Source of the DNA: a virus | Direction: 5' to 3' (one strand) | DNA length: 64,000 nt | IMG/VR virus record: IMGVR_UViG_3300021963_000071 | Span: 28,175-92,174 of that record | In this document: positions 60,623 through 61,672 of the stretch, piece by piece | Layout of the letters: the number at the start of each line of letters is the position of its first letter | Position numbering within the stretch: position 1 is the stretch's first letter | Notes under the pieces: model-generated | Database searches by the model: none | Told to the model about the DNA's origin: nothing | The model's input: only the letters and a program-made list of their open reading frames with translations | Made by a program: the position numbers and the translations under genes

Positions 60623-61672
60623 TCAATCAGATATTGCTGTCCTTGTTCTGTAATCATATTTTATATTTTTAATATATTCTTCATAAGATTCCTTTGTCGG
60701 AGCTCCAAAATCTCCAATAATCTTTCCACTTAATATTTTATTAACAATATTATTTTCATTTTTCATTTCTATTCCAAAATTAATATCTGAATTGCGAATT
60801 TCTTTTACTCCAGACCAGGTATTATGTCTTTGTTTTTCGGTCTTGCCTAGTGAAAATATTGGGGATTCTTTTGTTACAAAAATTTTGTACCCTCTAGTAC
60901 AAGCCCTAAGAGCAGTAGTATGCTCTTCTCCACCAAATGCTATCCTTGGATCGGGAAAAATTTCTTTAAAAAAACTTAAATCGGCAAATATAAAATTGCC
61001 TGAAACAAAGAATGTTTCAGCTGGATAGTCATGTTCTCCATCTTTATTTGCAAAGTAAAAATTTGGATCATCTTTATTTATAATTTTGATTGCTGGAGAT
61101 GAGTTACCTAAATATATTATTCTTTCTGAATCTTCATTAATTTCATAAGGAAATGGAGTAAAGCTAATGATTGATTTTTCGTGTATTTTTTTTAATTCTT
61201 CTATTTGATTGATTAGATATTTGTCCCAGTCTTTTTTAAAGATGGTATGTGCATCTATCTGCATTCCATAATCCTGATCCCTGTGAAGCATCAAAGAATT
61301 TAATCTTGCCAATCCTACTCCTCTTGTAAAAGGACTGTAGGAATTTATTTGTATAATATTATTTTTATATTTTTTAGGCACATAGTCCGTTGCATCTTCA
61401 AAAATTCCATCACTCCTTTGGTTATATAAACCAAAATATACTCCATCAGGATTATTAGCTTGCTCATAGGCGGTTTTTATCGTATTATATATTTCATCTT
61501 CATTAAAACATGCTGGATGAATAAAAATTGTTTTTTCACTTTTACTCACAAAACTATTATTTTCTTCCACAATATTATAAATATTATTTTGTTTTTGTAC
61601 GATATTATTTTCTTTTAATATTTTATTTTTAGACTCTTCAAATTTTTTTTTTGAAATAGTTTTAAATTGCAT
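60623..61672 (-). CDS. GlcNAc-transferase resembling Skp1 hydroxyproline GlcNAc-transferase
   Basis: This 349-residue protein resembles the GlcNAc glycosyltransferase family PF11397 (GT60), known from the Dictyostelium enzyme that adds GlcNAc to hydroxyproline on Skp1. Motifs: KTIFIHPACFNEDEIYNTIK near 47-66 (nucleotide-sugar strand), GVGLARLNSLMLHRDQDYGM near 118-137, QIDAHTIF at 138-145 (the DxD/DxH metal site), FFVSGNFIFAD near 221-231 and FGGEEHTTALRACTRGY near 246-262. It is cytosolic with no membrane segment; the first 45 residues are a Lys/Asn-rich tail. Neighbouring prolyl-hydroxylase-like genes make a hydroxylation-then-glycosylation path plausible. Confidence 0.75.
   Translation of the reverse strand: MQFKTISKKKFEESKNKILKENNIVQKQNNIYNIVEENNSFVSKSEKTIFIHPACFNEDEIYNTIKTAYEQANNPDGVYFGLYNQRSDGIFEDATDYVPKKYKNNIIQINSYSPFTRGVGLARLNSLMLHRDQDYGMQIDAHTIFKKDWDKYLINQIEELKKIHEKSIISFTPFPYEINEDSERIIYLGNSSPAIKIINKDDPNFYFANKDGEHDYPAETFFVSGNFIFADLSFFKEIFPDPRIAFGGEEHTTALRACTRGYKIFVTKESPIFSLGKTEKQRHNTWSGVKEIRNSDINFGIEMKNENNIVNKILSGKIIGDFGAPTKESYEEYIKNIKYDYRTRTAISD

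Follow-up and report, generated by a model that had tools for sequence, protein, structure and literature searches.

Whether a phage can hydroxylate prolines of its own virion proteins and then glycosylate them is the question raised by a glycosyltransferase gene in the 64,000-nucleotide stretch of viral DNA analysed here (the window), which is part of the 92-kb virus record G000. The initial annotation assigned the product to the GT60/PF11397 group and proposed that it acts with neighbouring prolyl-hydroxylase-like genes in a pathway for hydroxyproline O-glycosylation. The reading frame of this glycosyltransferase (hereafter GT) is 100% identical on a longer contig of 145 kb (G001; L007 is the G001 portion around the gene). 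The profile search matched the GT to PF11397 'GlcNAc' with 97 bits (E 2.1e-27; curated cut-off 21), the same profile matched 0 of 14 control genomes, and the PHROG search returned phrog_24687 'glycosyltransferase' (E 1e-18). A PDB sequence search with the GT gave no match up to E 1, and XacN1 was the sole match (26%) among the cultured phages searched. The profile, the DxH motif, and the fold described below uphold the placement, and the profile and structure searches left the protein inside the GT60/PF11397 group.

D140 and H142, the DxH motif, were invariant in the alignment of 137/137 phage relatives of the GT, a set that was partly collected by a DxH-containing motif itself. The motif sits within QxDxHxxFxxxWD (Q138-x-D140-x-H142). 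W149 and D150 were also invariant across the 137 aligned relatives, R123 did not vary among the sequences aligned at its site, and conservation was 90-93% for E249, E250, and R256. The canonical third His, on the strand after the GEE...R helix, is absent from the GT, and the site is occupied by Ser274, where 127/135 aligned relatives (94%) have His. This His, which we take from the GT27 enzymes to be a metal ligand, is probably a metal ligand in the relatives, and its replacement by Ser274 weakens any claim of normal catalysis by the GT. Since sub-clade members with intact ORFs (two in L339, and L381, L377, and L416) likewise lack the third His, the loss resembles a trait of the clade more than a sign of decay.

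The structure model of the GT, built from 24 related sequences (pLDDT 81, pTM 0.78), shows a GT-A fold near the ppGalNAc-transferases. The closest PDB folds were GalNAc-T2 (E 1.6e-9, although the TM-score was only 0.46) and T. gondii GalNAc-T3, and the wall teichoic acid GlcNAc-transferases TarP and TarS ranked after the ppGalNAc-transferases; the TM-scores of the matches were moderate, mostly 0.4-0.5. Because polypeptide GalNAc-transferases are the best fold matches, the GT is predicted to be built like a protein O-glycosyltransferase. A second GT60 gene of the same phage was found at G001:125666-126715, ~77 kb from the GT gene in G000. Its product retains the third His; its neighbours include other glycosyltransferase-like genes, and the fibre genes are distant. 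At this place, the related phage L339 carries two window-clade GT60 genes.

Ten 2OG-Fe(II) oxygenase genes are located within 49914-62957, that is, in 13 kb of one phage (Table 1). The GT gene adjoins prolyl-hydroxylase-like genes, as had been noted initially: oxygenase genes lie on both sides, and the downstream one is P4H-like by sequence and fold. The products of 59860-60540, 61775-62419, and 62403-62957 all match PF13640 (2OG-FeII_Oxy_3). The proposal that these genes stand under adjacent promoters held in part. One good sigma-70-like site precedes the P4H gene and falls between the GT and hydroxylase genes, but the whole region is no richer in promoter-like sites than its shuffles (13 compared with 14.6). 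Because the P4H gene has a promoter-like site of its own, co-transcription with the GT gene would not be required. The FkbM-like methyltransferase that had been counted among the neighbours turned out to lie 9 kb from the GT gene, and its resemblance to FkbM is weak; the window protein itself had no Pfam, PHROG, or NCBIfam match, and PF05050 reached only E 0.12, in 2/7 methyltransferase orthologs. Capping of a sugar by this enzyme is unsupported.

Table 1. Features of the window around the GT gene
Feature	Coordinates	Strand	Basis or remark
GT60/PF11397-type glycosyltransferase	60623..61672	-	349 aa, ATG start; ORF, profile, motif, fold
P4H-type 2OG-Fe(II) oxygenase	59860..60540	-	83 bp downstream of GT gene; cassette core member
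2OG-Fe(II) oxygenase, divergent partner of P4H	61775..62419	+	profile; split from P4H by GT gene
DUF6065 protein	59157..59858	-	profile
2OG-Fe(II) oxygenase	62403..62957	+	Pfam/PHROG profile
2OG-Fe(II) oxygenase-like	56665..57336	-	profile, under curated cut-off
2OG-Fe(II) oxygenase	54581..55708	-	profile
2OG-Fe(II) oxygenase	53645..54580	-	
2OG-Fe(II) oxygenase	52774..53655	-	
2OG-Fe(II) oxygenase	51959..52765	-	
2OG-Fe(II) oxygenase	50821..51360	-	
2OG-Fe(II) oxygenase	49914..50834	-	
Possible FkbM-like methyltransferase	51362..51943	-	family weakly assigned; other PPFF loci have six orthologs
Glutathione-peroxidase-like protein	55705..56319	-	near oxygenases
Fibre-like virion protein, C-terminal part	62954..64000	-	whole protein 755 aa on L007
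Sigma-70-like promoter before P4H gene	60574..60602	-	TTGACA-17-TAAAAT, 11/12, extended TG

The P4H-type enzyme downstream of the GT gene (hereafter P4H) scored 50 bits against PF13640 (cut-off 27), and its top PDB sequence match was B. anthracis P4H (7e-7). H127, D129, H180, and K190, which form the HxD...H...K pattern, were invariant in 20 P4H orthologs, and K190 is of the P4H type. When its structure model (pLDDT 88) was searched with Foldseek, the viral P4H of PBCV-1 was the top match (7.5e-11), followed by an algal P4H with a (Ser-Pro)5 peptide, PHD2, and P. putida P4H, and P4Hs made up almost all of the 50 best matches among solved structures. These matches point to a P4H fold, and the link to proline-repeat fibre genes described below suggests that proline within a peptide is hydroxylated.

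On L007, past the window end, two small fibre-like genes are followed by a gene (L007:3283-3732) whose product of 149 aa contains 25% proline. The gene lies 4.3 kb beyond the GT gene among fibre-like virion genes, and the C-terminal end of its product consists of ~15 tandem FPPF/FPPY copies with varying codons (the PPFF array). Ser and Thr together make up 0.3% of PPFF arrays, and the array of the window phage has no Thr. A degenerate DNA pattern picked out PPFF arrays in at least 120 stretches of IMG/VR and gave 18 matches in bacterial and archaeal genomes totalling 257 Gb, about four of which were true arrays. Neither the window-type PPFF protein nor an FN3-PPFF protein had a match in cultured phages. 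The literature searched, which included few subscription journals, contained no account of PPFF fibres, PF11397 in phages, or hydroxyproline glycosylation by a phage pathway.

Among the PPFF matches listed, 90/120 loci contained at least one 2OG oxygenase gene compared with 2/178 random viral loci, where the profiles used for the oxygenase and GT60 counts were built from window and locus sequences and the random loci had a GC content of 0.43-0.49 against 0.39 in the PPFF loci. Two random 15-mer samples served as controls, and the reversed PPFF pattern was unfit for this purpose because it also matches PPFF arrays. The median gap between array and oxygenase was 532 bp in PPFF loci of at least 5 kb. 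Three genes recurred with PPFF in 133 loci: P4H (86), the divergent partner (82), and DUF6065 (71). A further sample of 80 loci was fetched by the P4H sequence alone, blind to PPFF and GT. The divergent partner was present in 68/70 of these P4H-ortholog loci, and DUF6065 in all 69 that had enough downstream DNA. At least 5 kb of upstream DNA was available in 43 loci. Of these, 34 carried a PPFF array when all frames were read (26 when only ORFs with start codons were counted, which is an undercount), and the other 9 carried a collagen-like (GPT)n fibre gene; the respective numbers in random loci were 0/178 and 2/178. P4H thus goes with a proline-repeat fibre, whichever the repeat type, and this is the strongest result of the analysis. 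The hydroxylase part of the original proposal is sustained by the P4H-like character of the enzyme, evident in both its sequence and its fold, and by its membership in a cassette that accompanies proline-repeat fibre genes in 43/43 loci. Prolyl hydroxylation of the fibre stalk is well supported as the predicted system, and it is likely that P4H acts on the proline-repeat fibre.

The GT is a less regular member. Elsewhere, the divergent hydroxylase genes are mostly 8-110 bp apart (76 bp in L094, whose P4H is 80% identical to the window P4H), whereas the gap is 1235 bp in the window phage and is filled by the GT gene alone; three loci with a gap of 560-578 bp have a further oxygenase gene in between. 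The closeness of the pair elsewhere indicates that the GT gene entered the cassette at its centre or else dropped out of it. GT60 was found in 1/80 P4H-ortholog loci, so the cassette works without it. In L208, a GT60 gene of another clade begins 1 bp after the same partner gene. GT60 genes are also located near PPFF or PPGFF fibres in L138, L142, L113, L096, and L420, most cases of GT60 with PPFF having been collected via PPFF.

A sample of 120 viral loci (L301-L420) was collected by a degenerate GT60 motif alone. 2OG oxygenases were present in 15/120 of these loci compared with 2/178 random loci (p 4e-5; the p-values in this study treat viral loci as independent, and the loci are related), and 105/120 had no oxygenase. 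GT60 and oxygenase were directly adjacent in 6/15 loci, modestly above chance (permutation p 0.044), and a PPFF-like fibre was present only in L420. In a tree of 136 phage GT60 sequences, the window GT was placed in a 14-row clade (99*) in which 8/14 rows have an oxygenase within 3 kb, whereas a 77-row clade has none. The oxygenase label changed 11 times on the tree compared with 18.9 times when shuffled, and 0/500 shuffles were as low. PPFF counts on this tree are biased, since some rows were collected through PPFF. A within-genome distance test on few listed positions gave only p 0.026 and carries no weight here, and an independent-pairs test of oxygenase against PPFF on the GT tree had too few pairs. 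The GT60-hydroxylase link is real but occasional. Thus, the hydroxylase-transferase pair of the initial annotation recurs, in that GT60 genes lie by 2OG oxygenases in other phage lineages, but it is not fixed, as indicated by the 1/80 and 15/120 loci.

We propose that the P4H-type oxygenase, its divergent partner, and the other oxygenases hydroxylate prolines in a repetitive tail-fibre-like stalk, for which the (FPPF/FPPY)n protein encoded by L007:3283-3732 is the putative substrate here. The GT60-type enzyme, whose gene presumably came in as an insert that parted the divergent hydroxylase pair, would then add HexNAc, probably GlcNAc, to the fibre, most likely on the new hydroxyproline; since the repeat contains no Thr and almost no Ser, hydroxyproline would be the likeliest acceptor. 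The outcome may be a stiff, hydrophilic, sugar-coated stalk in place of a very hydrophobic one. The sequences themselves show the families, the motifs, the folds, the recurring cassette, and the place of the GT gene; the enzyme activities, the substrate, hydroxyproline as acceptor, and presence in the virion are predicted from them. That the GT acts on the fibre or a virion protein is somewhat probable. The complete virion-fibre modification cassette, in which hydroxylation is followed by HexNAc addition to the fibre, most likely on hydroxyproline, stands a little short of an even chance, and hydroxyproline as the acceptor of the GT is advanced tentatively. A sugar on hydroxyproline is nevertheless plausible as the best single guess for this locus, and it is favoured by the clade of the GT, the adjoining P4H, and the Thr-free array.

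The GT may instead be a mucin-type polypeptide GlcNAc-transferase that acts on Thr/Ser of virion proteins, with the hydroxylases carrying out a separate, non-sequential modification of the same fibres. Thr/Pro-rich mucin-like ORFs (TPTPTPT..., TTTTT...) were found in 43/120 GT60 loci compared with 1/178 random loci (p 1e-18), and in 21/43 they were directly adjacent to GT60 (permutation mean 11.4, p 0.001). Because phage GT60 genes are often near such proteins, threonine is a serious rival acceptor. The similarity of the fold to ppGalNAc-transferases agrees with an action on Thr/Ser, and two large proteins encoded beside the PPFF gene (41160 and 44919 in G001) look Thr-rich by eye. Protist GT60 comprises Golgi mucin-type enzymes, which act on Thr/Ser, in addition to the Skp1 hydroxyproline enzyme (PMC8724618). 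The assumption that GT60 is hydroxyproline-specific therefore fails for the family, whose members also act on Thr/Ser and whose phage members often lie near Thr/Pro-rich stalks. However, the window GT belongs to the oxygenase-associated clade, whereas mucin-like neighbours are common in the large oxygenase-free clade, and the fibre genes beside the GT showed no mucin-like stretch, nor does the PPFF array contain Thr. Thr/Ser is an unlikely but substantial candidate for the acceptor of this GT. The loci L301-L420 point to a possible mucin-type O-glycosylation system of phages. It is conceivable, though doubtful, that phage GT60 has two branches, one acting on Thr in mucin-like fibre stalks of many phages and the other on P4H-made hydroxyproline in the (PPFF)n stalks of the window lineage; such a division would parallel that of protist GT60 between Golgi and Skp1 enzymes. 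Some phage GT60 genes beside mucin-like proteins occur as tandem GT60 pairs.

It is improbable that the GT targets a surface glycan of the host or some other acceptor that is not a protein, for receptor masking or superinfection exclusion, its position reflecting only a variable island by the fibre genes. Genes come and go in phage islands close to fibre genes, 79/80 related cassettes lack GT60, the second GT60 of the phage is far from the fibre genes, and TarP/TarS were also returned by the fold search. But ppGalNAc-transferases outrank TarP in that search, and the strong tie of GT60 to repetitive fibre-like proteins is unexpected for a host-glycan enzyme. An equally low probability is given to the alternative that the oxygenases oxidise another residue of the repeat (the beta-carbon of Phe/Tyr, or Lys) or another substrate, and that no hydroxyproline is formed. 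PF13640 covers a broad superfamily, an alignment judged by eye shows Arg for Lys at the 2OG site in several of the ten enzymes, and one GT60-linked oxygenase has a weak NCBIfam match to a cyclophane oxygenase. The core enzyme, however, has P4Hs as its nearest structures and the P4H-type Lys190, and the neighbouring repeats PPxF and GPT have proline in common, not Phe. This GT copy is very unlikely to be a recent functionless insertion with weak or decaying catalysis, because although its probable third metal ligand is replaced and the insertion in the cassette was seen in one lineage only, its frame is open over 349 aa with D140, H142, R123, W149, D150, E249, E250, and R256 intact, and the sub-clade members that share the His loss have intact ORFs.

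The preferred reading, prolyl hydroxylation of the stalk followed by HexNAc addition, resembles the Skp1 system of Dictyostelium, Toxoplasma, and Pythium, in which Gnt1 (GT60) works with its P4H (PMC8724618). The GT belongs to the same Pfam family as Gnt1 and has a P4H-type partner gene 83 bp downstream, but it is a phage gene with a repetitive fibre stalk as the candidate substrate instead of a ubiquitin ligase subunit, it lacks the third His, and its activity is predicted from sequence alone. A dual-function P4H/GlcNAc-transferase of a plant pathogen is cited in the same review (van der Wel 2019). The GT60 mucin-type alpha-GlcNAc-transferases of T. cruzi and the Dictyostelium Golgi and the GT27 ppGalNAc-transferases share the DxH motif and the GT-A fold with the GT, although the GT has no lectin domain and the candidate substrate array nearby has no Thr. 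PBCV-1 P4H, the best structural match of P4H, is also virus-encoded; it acts in vitro on proline-containing peptides, and, as a point against the preferred reading, hydroxyproline was not detected in PBCV-1 virions (PMC7019647). PBCV-1 is, however, a eukaryotic virus, and the comparison covers its P4H alone. Proline-rich repeats are hydroxylated and then O-glycosylated, as proposed here, in the hydroxyproline-rich glycoproteins of plants and algae such as extensins (PMC8724618), but these carry Ara/Gal sugars added in the secretory pathway by transferases of other families. Phage-encoded glycosylation of virion proteins is reported for mycobacteriophages (Freeman 2023, cited in PMC12619734), where, in the account given there, it concerns the capsid and tail tube instead of a proline-repeat fibre and no hydroxylase is described.

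Aquatic phages very commonly carry 2OG oxygenases, and the role of phage prolyl 4-hydroxylase has been called cryptic (PMC9301287). With the present results, one phage oxygenase subfamily has a specific candidate substrate, the proline-repeat stalk of a fibre-like protein, at each locus where the sequence was long enough, and peptides now offer a direct test of the standing question on phage P4H. Should the GT modify this stalk as well, phages would possess a glycosylation system of the hydroxyproline (or mucin) type, which would bear on how stiff and soluble the fibres are and on how hosts are recognised. Fibre decoration of the suggested kind is known so far mainly from eukaryotes.

Several other features of these loci were observed. 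Glutathione-peroxidase-like genes recur beside oxygenases in 18/133 PPFF loci and also in L377 (6777-8045). A small DUF6171-type ORF (WxxYKKxxGxTRPWD) recurs between the fibre gene and the GT60/oxygenase genes (L142 5825-6052, L330 2925-3152, L369 3357-3596, and L112 213-491). Sulfotransferase-like genes were found near PPFF fibres in 12 loci, including L145 (3960-4727), and the tyrosine of PPYF could be their target. In PPFF genes of the 'KNNVPNIVG' type, the PPFF frame is shifted by +1 relative to the N-terminal frame in 13/16 distinct genes (L566, L567, L569, L577, L592, L599, L601, L602, L605, L610, L615, L618, and L169), whereas the window phage, L561, and L588 keep both parts in one frame. 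The frame difference sits at a conserved [AAA or GTN]-CGG-A site, which is possibly a programmed +1 frameshift site.
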